The notes beneath the pieces are model-generated. The model worked only from the letters and a program-made list of their open reading frames with translations, was not told where the DNA came from and searched no databases. A DNA stretch of 33,606 bases from Pseudoxanthobacter soli DSM 19599 (lineage in GTDB: Bacteria; Pseudomonadota; Alphaproteobacteria; Rhizobiales; Segnochrobactraceae). Below are positions 23,550-31,561 of this stretch, in pieces. Numbering within the stretch: position 1 is the stretch's first letter; each line of letters opens with the position of its first letter. The translations under genes and the position numbers were made by a program. The stretch spans positions 1 through 33,606 of the forward strand of contig CAMDHY010000041.1 of the NCBI GenBank assembly GCA_945898215.1, in the 5' to 3' direction.

Positions 23550-24536
23550 CTACGCCGCCTTCGCCGCCCGCGCCTTGGCGGCGTGGTCGGAGATCCACAT
23601 CTCCTCGTCGGGGAAGTCGGCCTCGGTGCGGCCGCCGGCAAACGCCTTCAGCACCTCCCACTGGAAGGCGAGGTAGCTCATCGTGTGGGGCTCGCGGCCC
23701 TTCTCGGTGAACAGCGCATTGTGCAGTTCGGGAAGCTGGTGGAAGGGCACGCCGGGGAAGGCGTGGTGGGCGGTGTGGTACTGCATGTTCCACGCCATCC
23801 AGCGCATCACCGCGTTGGTGCGGGTGGAGCGGGTGTTTTCGAGAATGTTCGGCTCGTGGGCGAGGCCGAGGTGCTCGATGGTGTTCTGCAGCTGGTGGAC
23901 GACCTTCGTCACCATCATCGGCGCGAGCCAGAGGATCACCGCCGCCCACGTCTGGAAGACGACCGACAGCACCGCGATGGCGATGTAGCCGGCGGCGTGC
24001 CAGCGCCCTTCGCGGACCACTTCCGGCCGGCGGGCCTCGGGGATGTAGGGCTCTGTGACGATGCCGAGCGAGAAGCGGACGATGCGGCGGACGCGGTAGT
24101 ACCAGTAGGTCGGCCCGAGCACGTAGAGCACGTAGGACGTGAAGGTGTAGGGCGGGCGGACCAGCTCGCCGTCGCGGTTCCAGTCCTGGGTGTAGCGGTG
24201 GTGGGCGAAGTGCTGCAGCTGGTCGAAGTCGCGCGGGAAGATAACGATGAAGCCGAACAGCCGGCCGAACCACTCGTTGAGCGCGCGCGTCTTGAACACC
24301 GTCCAGTGGCTGAGCTCGTGCTGGCCGGCATAGAGGAAGTTCAACAGGACGCCGTGGACGATGAAGATCGGCACCGCCCACCAGGTGCCCCAGGTGAGCC
24401 ACAGCGCCGTCCCGCTGACGGCGATCGCCCCGAGGTGGCTGCCGACCTGCAGGAAGCCGGCGAGGTCCGACTTGCCGGAGAGCGCCCTGAGGCGGGCGGG
24501 CTCGATCATGTCGCGGCGCGCGAAAACCTCATCCAT
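23550..24536 (-). CDS. Membrane fatty-acid desaturase-like di-iron protein
   Basis: 328 residues with the three histidine boxes of membrane di-iron desaturases and hydroxylases: HELSH at 73-77, HFAHH at 109-113 and QYHTAHH at 252-258. A further His in NTIEHLG (His222) is also conserved. Hydrophobic pairs lie at about 36-70 and 183-207, placing the boxes on the cytoplasmic face. It probably inserts a double bond or hydroxyl into an acyl or isoprenoid chain using oxygen. The ATG at 24536 was chosen because the fold begins shortly after; upstream in-frame codons look non-coding. The flanking importer and TIM-barrel genes do not suggest a substrate. Confidence 0.88.
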   Translation of the reverse strand: MDEVFARRDMIEPARLRALSGKSDLAGFLQVGSHLGAIAVSGTALWLTWGTWWAVPIFIVHGVLLNFLYAGQHELSHWTVFKTRALNEWFGRLFGFIVIFPRDFDQLQHFAHHRYTQDWNRDGELVRPPYTFTSYVLYVLGPTYWYYRVRRIVRFSLGIVTEPYIPEARRPEVVREGRWHAAGYIAIAVLSVVFQTWAAVILWLAPMMVTKVVHQLQNTIEHLGLAHEPNILENTRSTRTNAVMRWMAWNMQYHTAHHAFPGVPFHQLPELHNALFTEKGREPHTMSYLAFQWEVLKAFAGGRTEADFPDEEMWISDHAAKARAAKAA

Positions 24537-24650
24537 CTTCAGTCTTCTCCCCCGTGCGGATGGGAGACGATGCGGGAGCGGCGGGCGTCTCGCAAGCGTG
24601 GCGTTGGAAAGGTCGCTTGAGTGTTGGCTCAAGTGATGGGGGGGGTGTTT

Positions 24651-24922: not shown

Positions 24923-26275
24923 ATGATCCGCCTCGCCGTTCTGCTCGTCGGTGCCGATGCGATGCGGCGCAAGTGGAAGCTGCTCGCCGCCATCGGCATC
25001 GTGTGGATCGTGCTCGCCGTCGTCGTCGCCGCCGACATGGTCGACGGTGCGAGCCGGACGGCGACGTGGATCTTCGGCTACTTCCTCGTCGTCGAGGGCG
25101 CCGTGACGCTCCTGATGATGATCGGCGCCGGCGGCAGCAACGGGGTGCTGCTCGCCCGCGCCGCCGGGCTCGTTGTGCTCGGCTGTCTCATCCTCGACTT
25201 CCCCTTCGAGAACTCGATCGCCAATAGCGTGCTGTTCGGCCTCGCCTTCCTCGTCGACGGCTTCGTGCGGCTGGCCACCGCCTGGGTGATCCGCTACCGG
25301 CGCTGGCAGGTGGTGGCGATCGGCGGGCTGCTGGAGATGGCGCTCGCCGTCATCTGCTTCTCGAGCTGGCCGATCCCCTACTACAAGACCGTGCCGTTCT
25401 GCGTCGCCGTGGCGATGCTGATCACCGGCTGGAACTGCCTGCGCATCGGCCTCTTGCTGCGCCACGTCGGCCGCGACGCCTCGCTGTCGGCGCTGCCGAT
25501 GTTCACGCTGCGCTCCTGGCGCGGCCATGCGCCGGAGGCACCGACGCCGGTCGCGCGGGAGGCGCGCATCCCCCTCGTCGTGCACGTCTGGACGCCGGTC
25601 GGCTCGGCCGAGGACGTCGAGCGCCGGCCGCTGATCGACCGCTACATCGCCGCCGTCGACGGCAAGGGCGTCATCTCCACCGGCCACGCCTCGATCGAAC
25701 TGCAACCCGACATCTATGTCAGCCACTATCCCGGGGTGGAGATCGACCACTCGCCGGACGATTTCGGCGCACTTCTGAAGGCGTCGGGCGACAACGACGT
25801 CAAGGGACGCTTCCAGCCGTCCTACGCCTACGAGGTCTCGCAGTGGTGCGAGGCGGACGCGAACGTCAAGTTCCGGCGCTACGACGCCGCCAAGCTCGCC
25901 GCCTGGTGGGAGGTCTACCGGCGCGACGACACCTACAACCTCACCGACCGCAACTGCTCGATCGCCGTGGCCCTGGCGCTCGATGCGGCGCTCGAGGGCG
26001 CGCTCTACTCGCGCTTCGTCTGGAGCCGGTTCTTGCTGCTGCTGCTCAACCCCGACCTCTGGCTCGCGGCGACACTGCGCTTCCGGGCTGAATCGATGAC
26101 GTGGACGCCGGGCCTGGTGCTCGACTACGCCCGCGCCGTCCGCCGCGTCGTCGAGCCCCTCGACCGCGGCTATGTCGGGCGCCTGCAGGACACCGCCCGC
26201 CGCTGGCACGAGACCCGCGAAGTCGCCAAGCTGCGTCGCGAGATCGAGGCCGCCAGCAAGGACGGCCTCGTCTGA
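24923..26275 (+). CDS. HdeD-like membrane protein fused to a permuted papain-like domain
   Basis: 450 residues. The N-terminal about 185 residues have six hydrophobic segments (KLLAAIGIVWIVLAVVVAADM, then repeats of the type GYFLVVEGAVTLL and FLVDGFVRLATAWV), the pattern of HdeD/DUF308 acid-resistance membrane proteins. A soluble C-terminal part (about 217-380) shows TGHASIELQPDIYVSHYPG with His255 and, far downstream, YNLTDRNCSIAVALALDAALEG with Cys345. The His-before-Cys order with an NC motif resembles circularly permuted papain-fold (NlpC/P60, LRAT or PPPDE-like) domains. The ATG at 24923 keeps a short leader; Met14 is an alternative start. The MFS gene follows after 31 bases. The cysteine-peptidase or acyltransferase activity is inferred. 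Confidence 0.72.
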   Translation: MIRLAVLLVGADAMRRKWKLLAAIGIVWIVLAVVVAADMVDGASRTATWIFGYFLVVEGAVTLLMMIGAGGSNGVLLARAAGLVVLGCLILDFPFENSIANSVLFGLAFLVDGFVRLATAWVIRYRRWQVVAIGGLLEMALAVICFSSWPIPYYKTVPFCVAVAMLITGWNCLRIGLLLRHVGRDASLSALPMFTLRSWRGHAPEAPTPVAREARIPLVVHVWTPVGSAEDVERRPLIDRYIAAVDGKGVISTGHASIELQPDIYVSHYPGVEIDHSPDDFGALLKASGDNDVKGRFQPSYAYEVSQWCEADANVKFRRYDAAKLAAWWEVYRRDDTYNLTDRNCSIAVALALDAALEGALYSRFVWSRFLLLLLNPDLWLAATLRFRAESMTWTPGLVLDYARAVRRVVEPLDRGYVGRLQDTARRWHETREVAKLRREIEAASKDGLV

Positions 26276-26306: not shown

Positions 26307-27461
26307 ATGACCGCCGACCTCGCCCTCGCGCCGCGCACGCGCCTCGTCTCGATGGCGGCGGTGATCTCCGTCGCGATGATCTTCGGCCTCACCTACTCGC
26401 TGTCGGCGGCGCTGATCGCCATCGATCTCGCCGAGCGCGGCTACGGCGAGACGATGATCGGCTTCAACGCCGCCATGCACGCGCTCGGCACCCTGCTGGT
26501 GGCGCCGATCCTGCCGCGCCTCGTGGCGAGGATCGGGCCACGCCGGATCGTCGTGCTGTCGCTCGGCGTCGCGGCGGTGACGCTGGCGCTGTTCCCGGCC
26601 TCGCCGCTGCTCTGGCTGTGGTTCCCGCTGCGCTTCGTGCTGGGGGCGGCGAGCGAGGTGCTGTTCGTGCTGTCGGAGACGTGGACGAACTCGCTCGCCG
26701 AGGAGAAGACCCGCGCCCGCTCGATGGCCGCCTACATGATCGCGATGTCGCTCGGCATGGCGCTCGGACCTCTGATCCTGTCGATCGTCGGCTCGCAGGG
26801 CGCGCTCCCCTACCTGATCGGCACGGTGCTCTGCATCGGCGCGCTGGTGCTCGTGGCGCTGCCGATCGTGAAGGCGCCGCACTTCGAGGAGCCGGAGATC
26901 TCAAACCCGCTGCACTATGTGCGGCTGGCACCGCTGGCGATCGCCACGACCATCCTGATCGCGGCGCTGGAGTCCTCCGGCCTGTCGTTCCTGGCGCTCT
27001 ATGCGATGGGCCAGGGGTGGGACGAATCCGGCGCGGCGAGCCTGATCTCGACGATGATGTTCGGCGCCATCGTCTGCCAGGTGCCGGTCGGCTACCTCGG
27101 CGACGTCATGGACCGGCGGAAGCTGGTGGTGGTGCTGGCGATCGTCGCCACCATCGGCGCGGCGGCGTGGCCGTTCGTGCTGCACGACCCGCTGATCGCC
27201 TATCCGCTGCTGTTCCTCTGGGGCGGCGCCTTCGTCGGCATCTACACGATCATGCTGACGGTGGTGGGCAGCCGCTTCCAGGGCAGCGACCTCGTCGGCG
27301 TCTATGCGGTGATGGGGCTGTCGTGGGGCGGCGGCCTGCTCCTCGGCCCGGCGCTCGCGGGCTTTGCCATGGACCGGCACGTGCATGGCCTGCCGATCTT
27401 CGCCGCCGCCGCGTGCCTCCTCTACGCCTTCTACGCCATGCGGACGCGGTCGCAGGCGTGA
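26307..27461 (+). CDS. MFS transporter
   Basis: 384 residues with about 12 membrane segments. The first half has the MFS loop motif in LPRLVARIGPRRIVVLSLG between segments 2 and 3; the second half has the equivalent GYLGDVMDRRKLVVVLAI. FVLSETWTNSLAEEKTRARSMAAYMIAMSLGMALGP is typical of the YcaD/UMF-type branch of the superfamily. GACAAGCCGCG before the ATG at 26307 gives only a weak ribosome binding site. It follows the HdeD fusion by 31 bases and is probably cotranscribed. Substrate unknown. Convergent with the TPR-glycosyltransferase gene. Confidence 0.9.
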   Translation: MTADLALAPRTRLVSMAAVISVAMIFGLTYSLSAALIAIDLAERGYGETMIGFNAAMHALGTLLVAPILPRLVARIGPRRIVVLSLGVAAVTLALFPASPLLWLWFPLRFVLGAASEVLFVLSETWTNSLAEEKTRARSMAAYMIAMSLGMALGPLILSIVGSQGALPYLIGTVLCIGALVLVALPIVKAPHFEEPEISNPLHYVRLAPLAIATTILIAALESSGLSFLALYAMGQGWDESGAASLISTMMFGAIVCQVPVGYLGDVMDRRKLVVVLAIVATIGAAAWPFVLHDPLIAYPLLFLWGGAFVGIYTIMLTVVGSRFQGSDLVGVYAVMGLSWGGGLLLGPALAGFAMDRHVHGLPIFAAAACLLYAFYAMRTRSQA

Positions 27462-27518: not shown

Positions 27519-30455
27519 TCAGCGCCGCTTGGCGAACGCCTGTTTCGCCCAATGCTGCACGGTCGACTTGTATGAGGCCTTGCAGCCCGGCGTGCAGATG
27601 CGCTTCAACTCGAAGCGCTCCAGCACGACAATGTCGCGACCGAGACCGTCCAGGCGAGCCGGATCGGACGCGAGATGGTGTGCCAGCGCGCGGGTGAGCA
27701 CGCCCGGGCCGGTGGAGACCCAGATCGATTCCGCGTCGCCTCGCAGCGTCGCGGCCACCGCCTGCCGGAGGGCGGCCCCGATGACGGGGTGGCGGGGAGC
27801 GGCCGCGATGAAGTTGTTGCCGACGGTCCCCATCGGCTCCTGCCAGAGCAACATCTCCGCCATCGCGGTGGCGTCGTCGAGCGCGCTCATGCAGCGGTCG
27901 TCGGCGTCGGCATAGACGCCGCCTTCCCGCCAGAGCACCGCGAGACGGAACAGGTCGGCCTTGTGGGCGACCTGACGGGCGGTGCGAAAGGCGCGCTGCA
28001 CACGCGGGCCGCTGTAGGCGGCGAGCCAGCGCGTCGCAGCCTCGAGGTCGAAGCAGCGGTAGCGCCACGTCGGGTTGGTGTCCGACCATGTGCGCATCAG
28101 CTCGACGACATCGCCCGGCACGTCCGCGCGGTCCCAGAACTGATGGAGGCAGCGCGGTATGCGGCGAGCGCCACCCGATGGGCCCGGCAGCAGCGCAAGT
28201 CGCCCCGTTCGCCGCAGCAGGGTGAGCAGCGCGATGGCACCGCCGGTGTACGCTGGCTCTTCACGGATCGCGGCGAGCAGCGCCTCGACCCGGAAGCTCT
28301 CCAGTGCCGCCCGCGCGGCATCGAGGGCAGGCCCGTTCGACCAGATCTCGTTGAGGATCTCGCCGATCAGGCTCTGGGACGGGTTGCGCGACCGGCCCTG
28401 GATGACCAGGCTGCCCTGCCGAAGGCGATGCACGACGTGCAGGTGGCGGCGCGCATCCGCGACCTTCAGTTCCGCGACGTCGATGCGGGCAAGGCCGGCG
28501 TGAGCGGCGCCGTAGCGCGGATGATCGCGCACCGCCGCGGCGAAGGCCGAGCGAGCCTCCTCGAAGCGCCAGCGAGTTTCGGCGAGCTTGCCGGCAAGCG
28601 TCAGCCGCACCGCCCGTTGCTGTGGCGTCGCGACCGGGAGTCGCCCGATCGCGGCCCCCACCGCCGCGAACCGGCCGAGCTCCAGGTCGCGCTCGATGCG
28701 CCGCATCCGCAGCCCGATATCGGTCGGAAACCGCACTTCGGCGTTCGAGAGCGCGGCGTCCGCCTCGTTGTCGCGGCCGCGCTGCAGCAGGTGGTCGACG
28801 CGGGCGAGTGCAAGGGCAGGATCGGCGCCGATCACCCGCTCGGCTTCGTCGAGCAGGTCCAATGCCGCCTGCGCCGATTGCTGCTGGCTCGCCGCCGTCG
28901 CGAGGTGCACCCACGGCTCGGCTCGCGCGGGGTCGGCGGCGCGGGCACGCACGAGCAAGGCGCTCGCCTCGTCGTCCTCGGCGAGGAGCAGCAGTTCGCC
29001 GAGCCGCAGCAGGGCGCCGGCGTGGTCGGGGTGGCGCACCAGCACGGCTTCGAGCGCCGCCTTCGCGGCCGCGATACGGCCGAGGGCGCGCAACTCTCCA
29101 GCCACCAGCACGGACGGCGAGGGGCGTGCCGGCGCCCGTCGCTCGGCGGCCCGGAAGAAGGCTAGCGCCGCATCGTGATCGCCGCGCGCCCGCGCAATCC
29201 GCCCCTGCTGCAGCAGCACGTCGACGTCGGCCGGAAAGTCCGCGGCAAGCTCCGCAACGCGCGTCACCGCGTCGTCGATGCGGCCAGCGAGACGCAGCGC
29301 CTCGACGATCCGCAGCCGGAGGATCCGGTCGAAGGCGTGCCGCGAAAGCGCCGCCTCATACGTCGCAAGCGCCCCCGCCCGGTCGCCACGCGCCATCTGA
29401 CAGTCGCCGATGCCCAGAACCGCGCCAAGTTGTCCGCGGTCGCGGGTGGCAACGGCGCGAAAGATCGCTTCCGCTTCCGCGATCCGGCCAAGCGCGGCGA
29501 GTTCGGTGGCGGTCTCGATCGCCACGGAGGCACGACCACTCCGGCGGCGTTCGGCAGCGCGAAAGCGCTCGAGCGCGCCGGCATGGTCGCCCAGCGCCCG
29601 TGCCAGCTTTCCCGCAAGAACAAGGACGTCGGGGTCGTGACGGCGGCCGGCCGAGAGAAGCGCGATATGCTTCTCAGCGGCGGCAAGGTCGCCGAGCGCG
29701 AGGAGTTGCTCGCCGATCCGCACGCGCAGCCGCAGATCGTGCGGACGGCGGCGGAGCGCGGCCCGGTAGTGGGCCAGCGCGGCGGCGGCATCACCGCGGC
29801 GGTGCGCCACCTCGGCGCGGCCGACGAGGGCGACTGTGGTCTTCGGCGCCGCATCGAGGATGGCTGCATAGGCGGCGTCAGCCGTCTGGTAGAACGACGC
29901 CGCACGGCGGGCCGCCCGCTTTGCGGCAGTTCTCCGGCTCCGGCGATCATCGCCGTCGCCGCCCCGTGCGGCGATGGCGGATTCCCGGTCGCCGCAGGCC
30001 CGCGCGAGATGGCCCGACTGCAGCAGGATGTCGGGATGGCCGGGGTGGTCGGCCAGCAATCGTGCCAGGGCCTGGCCCGCCAGATCGAGGCGGCCGAGCC
30101 GGCGGTGAAGCTCGGCAACCCGCAGTCGCAATGCGAGGTTTCCCGGCATCGCCGACAGGGCCACGCGGACCTTCGCCAGCGCGGCCGCGTCGTCACCGCG
30201 TCTGCAGGCCACCTCCGCCAGCCCGCGCAGGGCCTCCGGCTGGCCGGGCTCGATGGCGAGTGCCGCGCGCCAGGCGGATTCCGCAGCGTCGATCCGCCCC
30301 TCGGCGAGAAGATCGCGCGCGATGTCGAGACGCAGCTGGAGCGAGCGGGGATCGGCGGCTTCGGGGTCACCCGAGATTGACAGCCCGGACGTACTTCCCT
30401 CAGCCGCAGCACTTGCGCCGGTGGCGGTTGGCCATGTCCAGGGAGCCTTCGCCAC
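27519..30455 (-). CDS. Large TPR protein with C-terminal GT32-like glycosyltransferase
   Basis: 978 residues starting at GTG. Residues about 35-690 are tandem TPR-like helical repeats rich in Ala, Leu and Arg, for example LLAEGRIDAAESAWRAALAIEPGQPEALRGLAEVA and FRAAERRAPARPSPSVLVAGELRALGRIAAAKAAL. The C-terminal about 210 residues are a DXD-type sugar transferase (Gly_transf_sug/GT32-like): RIPRCLHQFWDRADVP, RQVAHKADLFRLAVLWREGGVYADADDRC with the metal-binding DADD near residue 850, GNNFIAAAPRHPVIG and STGPGVLTRA. The TPR part probably binds the acceptor protein or an assembly partner. It lies 17 bases downstream of the Hint gene on the same strand, so the two are likely cotranscribed. Its C-terminal domain is closely matched by the gene at the right edge. 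Confidence 0.87.
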   Translation of the reverse strand: MAKAPWTWPTATGASAAAEGSTSGLSISGDPEAADPRSLQLRLDIARDLLAEGRIDAAESAWRAALAIEPGQPEALRGLAEVACRRGDDAAALAKVRVALSAMPGNLALRLRVAELHRRLGRLDLAGQALARLLADHPGHPDILLQSGHLARACGDRESAIAARGGDGDDRRSRRTAAKRAARRAASFYQTADAAYAAILDAAPKTTVALVGRAEVAHRRGDAAAALAHYRAALRRRPHDLRLRVRIGEQLLALGDLAAAEKHIALLSAGRRHDPDVLVLAGKLARALGDHAGALERFRAAERRRSGRASVAIETATELAALGRIAEAEAIFRAVATRDRGQLGAVLGIGDCQMARGDRAGALATYEAALSRHAFDRILRLRIVEALRLAGRIDDAVTRVAELAADFPADVDVLLQQGRIARARGDHDAALAFFRAAERRAPARPSPSVLVAGELRALGRIAAAKAALEAVLVRHPDHAGALLRLGELLLLAEDDEASALLVRARAADPARAEPWVHLATAASQQQSAQAALDLLDEAERVIGADPALALARVDHLLQRGRDNEADAALSNAEVRFPTDIGLRMRRIERDLELGRFAAVGAAIGRLPVATPQQRAVRLTLAGKLAETRWRFEEARSAFAAAVRDHPRYGAAHAGLARIDVAELKVADARRHLHVVHRLRQGSLVIQGRSRNPSQSLIGEILNEIWSNGPALDAARAALESFRVEALLAAIREEPAYTGGAIALLTLLRRTGRLALLPGPSGGARRIPRCLHQFWDRADVPGDVVELMRTWSDTNPTWRYRCFDLEAATRWLAAYSGPRVQRAFRTARQVAHKADLFRLAVLWREGGVYADADDRCMSALDDATAMAEMLLWQEPMGTVGNNFIAAAPRHPVIGAALRQAVAATLRGDAESIWVSTGPGVLTRALAHHLASDPARLDGLGRDIVVLERFELKRICTPGCKASYKSTVQHWAKQAFAKRR

Positions 30456-30472: not shown

Positions 30473-31561
30473 TCAGGCGGCCTTGCCGCGCCGGCGGCGG
30501 CCGAACAGCTGTTTCGCGCGGGCGGCAAGCCGAGTGGCAATCGGGCGGGGGAGCTGGCGCGACGAGCGCACGCGCGGCAGTTCCAGTTCGACGACGTCGA
30601 GCTCCTCCACGCCGTAGAGGTCTTCGTACTCCCGCCAGTTGTCGAAGCGGCGGCGCGTGACGTTGTCGACGAAGGTCTCCGCCGGCGTGTTCTCGGCGAG
30701 GATCAGCGCGTGGTCCTCCGCCTCGACGTGAAAATAGACGAAGCGCTCCGGCAGGTCGGACATGCGCTCGACCGCAATGCCGTCAACCAGCGCGCCGGCC
30801 TGCACCAGCGACCCGTCGACGAGTAGCGCGTGGTCCGGCGAGACGCACAGGTCGCGGGACGGCACGCCATCGGCCAGCGCGCCCGCGCGGATGCGGATCG
30901 GGCGGCCATGCAACGGATCGGCGAAGCGCGGCATCACCGTCTGCCGGCCGATCCACTTCACCCGCCGCGTGCCACCGTCGGCCGTCGAGACGACATCGCC
31001 GATCGCGAGGTCCTCGACCGGGCGCTCACCGCCAGGGCAGCCGATCAGCGTGCCGGCGAGGAAGCAGAGTGCAACGGACTCGACAACCGGAGTAATGATC
31101 GTCCCACCCGGATATCCATTATTTGATAGAAAAATTACTTTGTCTGGACCTCTTATTGTCTCTACAATTATCTCTCCCCTAAAATGGCCAATATACCTGC
31201 ACCAAATTCCATCGCCATCATAAGAAATGAGAACCTTATCCCCTGGAACGAATATCCCTAAATTATCGTCATAAACAAAAGCGCCCGGTATGCCCCAATA
31301 CTGCCAGGATTCCCATTCCTCAAGTCCGGGGCCAGGGACGGCGAACGTTCCGTCGGAATTGCGTATGAGTTGATAGTAGCCTTCAAAGTCGTTCCAGCTC
31401 ATCGACAGCCCCCCGAGTGAACTCTTTGCGCCATCGCCACGCAGCAGCTTGTCTTGGACCACCGCCAATGGCGAGGTCTTCAGCCGGGCGCTCGCCACCA
31501 GGGTGTCGATCATCATGCCAGCGCGACAGCCCAGATTGTTCGGATGAACTTTCCCGAACAT
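30473..31561 (-). CDS. Mosaic Hint (Hedgehog/intein-type) domain protein
   Basis: 362 residues. The C-terminal Hint domain runs from about 165 to 315: CFLAGTLIGCPGGERPVEDL (nucleophile Cys and A-block), IGDVVSTADGGTRRVKWIG, SPDHALLVDG (the B-block His) and HVEAEDHALILAENTPAETF. Hint domains self-splice or self-cleave, releasing the upstream segment. Residues about 54-160 (EGYYQLIRNSDGTFAVPG onwards) come from markedly AT-rich DNA. Residues 1-50 are read from DNA that in another frame encodes a second Hint start (see the pseudogene entry). TTGAGG seven bases before the ATG at 31561 supports that start; Met54 (31402), behind a G-run, is an alternative. The TPR-glycosyltransferase follows 17 bases downstream. 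Role unknown: autoprocessed surface or effector protein is a guess. Confidence 0.8.
   Translation of the reverse strand: MFGKVHPNNLGCRAGMMIDTLVASARLKTSPLAVVQDKLLRGDGAKSSLGGLSMSWNDFEGYYQLIRNSDGTFAVPGPGLEEWESWQYWGIPGAFVYDDNLGIFVPGDKVLISYDGDGIWCRYIGHFRGEIIVETIRGPDKVIFLSNNGYPGGTIITPVVESVALCFLAGTLIGCPGGERPVEDLAIGDVVSTADGGTRRVKWIGRQTVMPRFADPLHGRPIRIRAGALADGVPSRDLCVSPDHALLVDGSLVQAGALVDGIAVERMSDLPERFVYFHVEAEDHALILAENTPAETFVDNVTRRRFDNWREYEDLYGVEELDVVELELPRVRSSRQLPRPIATRLAARAKQLFGRRRRGKAA
31440..31530 (-). pseudogene. Frameshifted remnant of a second Hint-domain start
   Basis: On the minus strand this stretch encodes, in one frame, CRAGMMID and then, one base out of register, PGGERPAEDLAIGG. The intact gene has CFLAGTLIG followed by PGGERPVEDLAIGD. 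DNA at about 31467-31528 aligns with DNA at about 30997-31057 at roughly 48 of 61 positions by eye, with one single-base gap. The remnant is embedded in the 5' part of the present Hint open frame, which reads through it out of register. It looks like the start of an older Hint gene left behind after a duplication or module replacement. Confidence 0.7.

Follow-up and report, generated by a model that had tools for sequence, protein, structure and literature searches.

In the window (the whole stretch of DNA that was analysed, 33,606 nucleotides from Pseudoxanthobacter soli DSM 19599), the forward-strand open reading frame at 24923..26275 was translated into a protein of 450 amino acids, in which a DUF308/HdeD-type membrane domain is joined to a C-terminal domain that appears to be permuted papain-like (DUF4105/Lnb-like). 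Both halves were found in 45 homologous loci. The frame starts with ATG, and this start is supported by Met1, which was invariant in the aligned homologues (7/7). A YcaD-like MFS transporter gene (26307..27461, forward strand; MFS_1, 137.5 bits) starts 31 nt past the stop of the fusion gene and is possibly co-transcribed with it. A fatty acid desaturase gene (23550-24632, reverse strand; FA_desaturase, 124.6 bits) lies upstream in divergent orientation; it was dropped as a candidate partner, since none of the ORFs from the other 44 loci clustered with it. The reverse strand also encodes a long protein (27519-30455) that has many TPR-like repeats and, as read from the sequence, an apparent sugar-transferase end; it is adjoined by a Hint_2 domain protein (30473-31561; 134.6 bits).

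The N-terminal half was predicted to contain six membrane segments with both termini inside (residues 18-180; 24974..25462, forward strand), on the basis of the DUF308 match, the helices of a low-confidence model and the loop charges over 45 proteins. In the Pfam scan of the window protein, residues 80-146 scored 28.0 bits with PF03729 (DUF308; cut-off, 25), and the hydropathy profile had six main peaks between residues 25 and 171, consistent with six membrane segments. AlphaFold2 placed helices at residues 18-40, 44-68, 74-92, 98-123, 128-146, and 153-180 (low-confidence model; pLDDT 48-72 per ten-residue block). A profile of the membrane half matched all of the 45 loci (worst E value, 7.7e-36). 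The DUF308 model itself was run on nine family members only: five of seven matched at E ≤ 1, and two (L131 and L134) gave no match at E ≤ 0.1. The window protein did not reach the HdeD equivalog model of NCBIfam (NF007577; 13.9 versus 189 bits), and the term "HdeD-like" is therefore used only at the level of the DUF308 superfamily, which includes HdeD. At that level, the HdeD-type N-terminus named in the original prediction was borne out by the Pfam score and the six hydropathy peaks. Proteins of the HdeD/DUF308 group (PF03729) thus have the membrane domain in common with the fusion, which scores above the DUF308 cut-off; to our knowledge, HdeD proper is without an enzyme domain, unlike the fusion.

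The mean number of lysine and arginine residues over the 45 proteins was 3.31 in the N-terminus, 0.31 in loop 1, 1.96 in loop 2, 0.18 in loop 3, 2.56 in loop 4, 0.27 in loop 5, and 2.84 after segment 6. Since this alternation is a clean positive-inside pattern, both ends of the membrane half should be cytosolic, and the C-terminal enzyme domain is predicted to face the cytosol. The predicted location sets the fusion apart from Lnb_N, which is named periplasmic by Pfam; a periplasmic catalytic domain, which is a feature of Lnb, disagrees with the charge distribution of the fusion.

The conserved part of the putatively catalytic C-terminal domain covers residues 216-403 (25568..26131, forward strand), as judged from the alignments A3 and A4 and the Lnb_N matches. 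The His-then-Cys reading had been based on His255 in TGHASIEL and Cys345 in NCSIAVAL. These motifs begin at residues 253 (within STGHASIEL) and 344, respectively, and both residues were present and invariant in 45/45 loci; variability of either one, which had been named as evidence against the reading, was thus not seen among the 45 loci. The proposed catalytic base, His255 (motif STGHA; 25685..25687, forward strand), precedes by 90 residues the proposed nucleophile, Cys345 (motif YNLTxRNCS; 25955..25957, forward strand), which sits within YNLTDRNCSIAV in the second half of the window protein. A candidate for the NlpC/P60 signature tyrosine, Tyr338 (25934..25936, forward strand), is found seven residues before the cysteine in 45/45 proteins. 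Two polar residues may orient His255, namely Ser267, 12 residues after it and a candidate third catalytic residue (25721..25723, forward strand; invariant in the 36/36 rows of A4), and E259 (44/45 proteins). The segment WTPGLxxDYA (residues 394-403; 26102..26131, forward strand) is a signature of the family. In all, Gly254, His255, Pro270, Tyr338, Cys345, Trp394, Thr395, Pro396, Gly397, and Asp401 were each invariant in 45/45 proteins, and Asn344 was found in 43/45. Six homologues were 50-62% identical to the window protein in the C-terminal domain (A3) and 42-54% identical to it over the whole protein (A1). As read from these alignments, the C-terminal domain is conserved as an active enzyme would be.

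The 45 loci consisted of the window, 4 loci from genome contigs, 26 from genomes, and 14 from plasmids, and included some near-copies. Of the 44 plasmid records, 15 were taken up and 14 used; the one on the Pseudomonas silvicola plasmid p1 (L132, 4578-5738), where the possibly decayed gene is annotated in two pieces, each a short hypothetical protein, was excluded. Note that three near-copies (L017, L085, and L086, of which L017 was cut at a contig end) are absent from A4 and the tree and were counted among the 45. The fusion is more than a chance joining, because His255 and Cys345 were invariant in 45/45 proteins and the membrane-half profile matched all 45 loci; the catalytic-half profile also matched all 45. 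It is a real, conserved, and under-annotated two-domain family. With the whole protein as the query, 12 of 61 near genomes matched (own genome included), and four of these have the full-length fusion; the remaining eight matched in the membrane half only, as did an additional place in G002, which is among the four, with 22-27% identity to the fusion. With the C-terminal domain as the query (E ≤ 0.001), matches were found in 8 of 385 genomes from the class and in 16 of 398 from the phylum. A survey of how many genomes encode the fusion had been proposed in the original prediction; the near-genome, class, and phylum searches, the samples of which overlap, gave 25 different genomes in total, and there were plasmid copies in addition. 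Among 72,556 plasmid records, 43 matched the whole protein and 44 matched the C-terminal domain at a looser limit, and the carriers include Agrobacterium, Roseomonas, Pantoea, Burkholderia, and Caballeronia. When the E. coli copy was used as a DNA query, the fusion was found in 3 of 5,426 E. coli genomes, on plasmids in every case. No match to the fusion was found in 50,697 phage records, and no relative was found in three scans of viral contigs. When the family profile was searched against 200 genomes (E ≤ 0.5), seven genomes had the fusion, 13 others matched weakly (E value, 0.023 or worse), and no stand-alone C-terminal domain was found.

For the kinship of the C-terminal domain, 36 such domains were scanned against 24,736 Pfam families (E ≤ 1). 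Lnb_N (DUF4105, PF13387) was matched by 27/36 domains (best E value, 1.7e-4) and RTE1-like by 8/36 (best E value, 0.032); these were the only families with more than one matching member, and four others were matched by one member each. The matches are not independent tests, because the members are related. The window domain itself scored below the Lnb_N cut-off (14.3 versus 22.2 bits), and the member from Pantoea soli, the record of which names DUF4105, scored above it over the Cys half (22.5 versus 22.2 bits). When Lnb_N was scanned over 200 genomes (E ≤ 0.05), five places were found below the cut-off, of which four are the fusion, in agreement with the places given by the class and phylum searches; in the same scan there was no match in at least two other genomes that carry the fusion, G000 and G516. 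Conversely, the best non-fusion match of the family profile in the 200 genomes (E value, 0.023) was a DUF4105 protein with an Lnb_N E value of 5.5e-23. Profile comparison with hhalign gave a score of 29.1 against 23 Lnb_N proteins (shuffled columns, 15.5 ± 2.9; 0/150 reached the score), with an HH-suite probability of 14% over 37 columns around the Cys, and a score of 33.1 against the DUF4105 protein L118 (shuffled columns, 13.8 ± 2.7; 0/150), with a probability of 45% over 65 columns; L118 was chosen as the best non-fusion match and itself belongs to the 23 Lnb_N rows. No significance was obtained against the DUF4105 subfamily encoded next to the fusion (21 proteins), where 38/200 shuffles reached the score. 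Comparisons with small sets were weak (P = 0.57, 0.095, and 0.0092); in the last of them, the His positions were aligned with one another, as were the Cys positions.

The similarity to Lnb_N is mostly confined to the Cys half. There, the Tyr at C-7 was found in 45/45 fusions, 23/23 proteins of the first Lnb_N set, and 19/20 of the neighbour subfamily (21 rows, of which one was not counted in the residue tally), and the Asn at C-1 in 43/45, 23/23, and 20/20, respectively. The His-then-Cys order is also common to the fusion and Lnb_N/DUF4105 proteins, whereas the latter are without the HdeD part, are named periplasmic by Pfam, and in many cases are 600-700 amino acids long with a long C-terminal part, which we read as a beta-barrel. 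In excerpts of two papers, both RTE1/TMEM222 and DUF4105 are listed as papain-like (PMC10318531), and Tyr101 and Cys108 of PPPDE1 have the same spacing as the Tyr at C-7 and the Cys of the fusion (PMC3142127). The fusion gave no Pfam match at E ≤ 1 with LRAT (PF04970), PPPDE, or Peptidase_C92 YiiX (PF05708). These families have the permuted order in common with the fusion, and they were set apart from it on the basis of Pfam matching; in three loci of the LRAT search (L106, L107, and L110), Y-[DN]-L-x3-N-C was read, which resembles the Cys motif of the fusion. By sequence matching, the domain is closer to Lnb_N/DUF4105 than to any other Pfam family, LRAT and PPPDE included, and kinship with permuted papain-like (NlpC/P60) proteins is very probable. 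The permuted papain reading of the original prediction therefore held at the sequence level, through the invariant His, Cys, and Tyr and the Lnb_N and RTE1 matches, while LRAT and PPPDE, which it had given as examples, were unmatched.

AlphaFold2 was run twice, on the whole protein and on the domain, each time with an alignment of four rows (the window, L014, L015, and L016). The whole-protein model had a mean pLDDT of 47.0 (25-36 over residues 201-340) and no confident fold. The model of the C-terminal domain contained strands and then, as expected, a helix starting two residues past the Cys; at its mean pLDDT of 38.5, this proves nothing. Among the PDB matches, MmpL4 (E value, 0.0021; window residues 119-265), a foldase (E value, 2.2 with the window protein and 0.071 with profile A4), and two serotonin-receptor chains (E values, 0.6 and 0.98 with profile A4) were taken as chance. 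A "putative RTX-toxin" chain, 5xn7, matched profile A4 with an E value of 0.12, its N-A-S pairing with N-C-S; this is not evidence alone, and the structure is described as papain-like in an excerpt of PMC10318531.

Gene neighbours were compared by clustering all ORFs of at least 110 codons around the 45 loci; 50 clusters were common to at least three loci, and the identities of neighbours were taken from the 25 largest of these 50. A cluster of MFS genes adjoins the fusion in 22/45 loci (same strand in 20), and in five annotated plasmids there is a 4-base overlap between the fusion and the MFS gene. Since MFS genes adjoin the fusion on either side of the tree's midpoint root (a root for drawing only), the association looks old. 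In the three MFS neighbours checked, YcaD (PRK03633) was the best match, well below the cut-off; it was the best NCBIfam match of the window MFS protein, with 73.8 bits (cut-off 361). We know of no substrate of YcaD. A protein with MASE1 is encoded directly upstream of the fusion in 5/45 loci (three of the five checked by Pfam), all in one six-member clade, the named members of which are enterobacteria. These loci are L134 (4570-7757), L103, L092, L044, and L137, with a PAS match in L092 and a weak one in L103. A gene for a true Lnb_N protein (115.6-152.1 bits) was found next to the fusion in 4/45 loci, which fall on three tree branches, two of them meeting at an unresolved fork; this Lnb_N subfamily matched only 14 of 200 genomes. 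In L134 and L103, the order MASE1, fusion, and Lnb_N may represent a three-gene membrane unit, partly on plasmids, and one genome (G660) has three copies of the fusion (L095, L096, and L097), only one of which adjoins an Lnb_N gene. One of the four loci with an Lnb_N gene, on an Ochrobactrum plasmid, also has a gene for a patatin-like phospholipase, and a DedA/VTT gene is near the fusion on an Agrobacterium plasmid. The Lnb_N, patatin, and DedA/VTT neighbours hint at membrane lipids, naming no substrate.

With moderate confidence, we favour the reading that the fusion is an enzyme of the inner membrane, namely a thiol acyltransferase or phospholipase with inner-leaflet lipids as substrates. 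The six HdeD-type segments would anchor the enzyme domain at the inner leaflet and perhaps feed lipid to it, and the cytosol-facing C-terminal domain would have the permuted NlpC/P60 fold, nearest to DUF4105/Lnb. His255 would activate Cys345, on which an acyl group taken from a phospholipid of the inner leaflet would form a thioester, with Tyr338 helping to hold the transition state; transfer of this acyl group to water would make the enzyme a phospholipase, and transfer to another acceptor a transacylase, and the YcaD-like MFS neighbour may move the substrate or the product. The acyl chemistry is proposed because it is carried over from the relatives Lnb, Tox-Act1, and YiiX. In the excerpts of PMC12994826 and PMC3142127, the permuted relatives are described as acting on lipids: Lnb is an N-acyltransferase and Tox-Act1 is a phospholipase (PMC12994826), and the pocket of YiiX contains a fatty acid (PMC3142127). 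The original prediction had proposed a membrane-tethered cysteine hydrolase or acyltransferase linked to an acid-stress membrane domain, which would be a new role for the HdeD family. Of this, the fusion and the invariant His and Cys stood, and the enzyme chemistry is drawn by analogy from relatives; nothing linking the fusion to acid stress was found in this sequence analysis.

Other functions were weighed against this. The papain-like residues, in their putative catalytic role, would also suit a membrane-anchored cysteine peptidase or amidase that cuts peptides or lipo-amides on the cytosolic side; the records CP061774 and NZ_CP012399 name the fusion "protease", and permuted enzymes of the C92 group are said to be lipid amidases (PMC10318531, in excerpt). 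However, none of the 36 C-terminal domains matched a peptidase-named Pfam family at E ≤ 1, and Lnb_N, the nearest family, is reported to include a lipoprotein N-acyltransferase (PMC12994826, in excerpt). We regard a peptidase or amidase as possible though doubtful. The layout of a membrane part and an enzyme part is also used by abortive systems, which, together with the presence of the gene in 43 of 72,556 plasmid records, would suit a conflict protein, that is, a membrane-damaging or lipid-degrading effector related to Tox-Act1 that functions in defence or self-poisoning with the HdeD part as a sensor. Tox-Act1 is indeed reported as the sister clade of DUF4105, and the Tox-Act1/TseH effectors have a related permuted NlpC/P60 core and phospholipase activity (PMC12994826, in excerpt); compared by description only, these are secreted toxins, whereas the fusion is a membrane protein, often adjoining a transporter gene. 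No PADLOC match was obtained at E ≤ 0.1, the 50,697 phage records contained no match, and the recurrent neighbours among the 25 largest of the 50 clusters were the transporter, MASE1, and Lnb_N, none of them a defence gene. A conflict role is thus improbable.

A lipoprotein N-acyltransferase like Lnb would account for the similarity to Lnb_N; it is nevertheless very improbable, the Lnb_N domain being named periplasmic by Pfam and that of the fusion being predicted as cytosolic from the charges in 45 proteins. Finally, the C-terminal domain would not be papain-like at all if its His, Tyr, and Cys motifs were convergent. With this, the lack of a confident fold (pLDDT 47.0 and 38.5), the profile comparison that was not significant (38/200 shuffles), and the limitation of the similarity mostly to the Cys half would agree, whereas the several sequence links to papain-like families argue against it, and we consider convergence unlikely.

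HdeD is a well-known acid-resistance gene, and we know of no biochemical role for it. A natural, conserved fusion with a domain whose nearest family includes an acyl-moving enzyme is a direct and testable clue on HdeD, and the fusion, with 25 genomes and the plasmids, is common enough to study. A thiol acyltransferase or phospholipase of the kind favoured above would extend the lipid-acting permuted NlpC/P60 enzymes by one that faces the cytosol. More speculatively, and with low confidence, HdeD-type domains might be a membrane platform that senses inner-leaflet lipids or presents them to an acyl-transferring enzyme; the fusion would then correspond to Lnb on the cytosolic side and remodel phospholipids under stress, a lyso-lipid or acyl product being handled by its own YcaD-like transporter, and would have spread among proteobacteria partly by plasmids. 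Among the matches listed in a search of open-licence papers by title and start of the abstract, no paper on a fusion of HdeD/DUF308 with a cysteine enzyme was found, and the main texts of PMC12994826 and PMC10318531 mention neither HdeD nor DUF308. In existing records, members are named "protease", "DUF308", "DUF4105", "MFS transporter", or hypothetical, and the RefSeq name of the three E. coli plasmid copies is "HdeD family acid-resistance protein". The label "MFS transporter" is placed on the fusion itself in three plasmids (L042, 8001-9338; L044, 7710-9011; L137, 6001-7293), which looks like misannotation, and the copy in L134 is annotated as TctB family.
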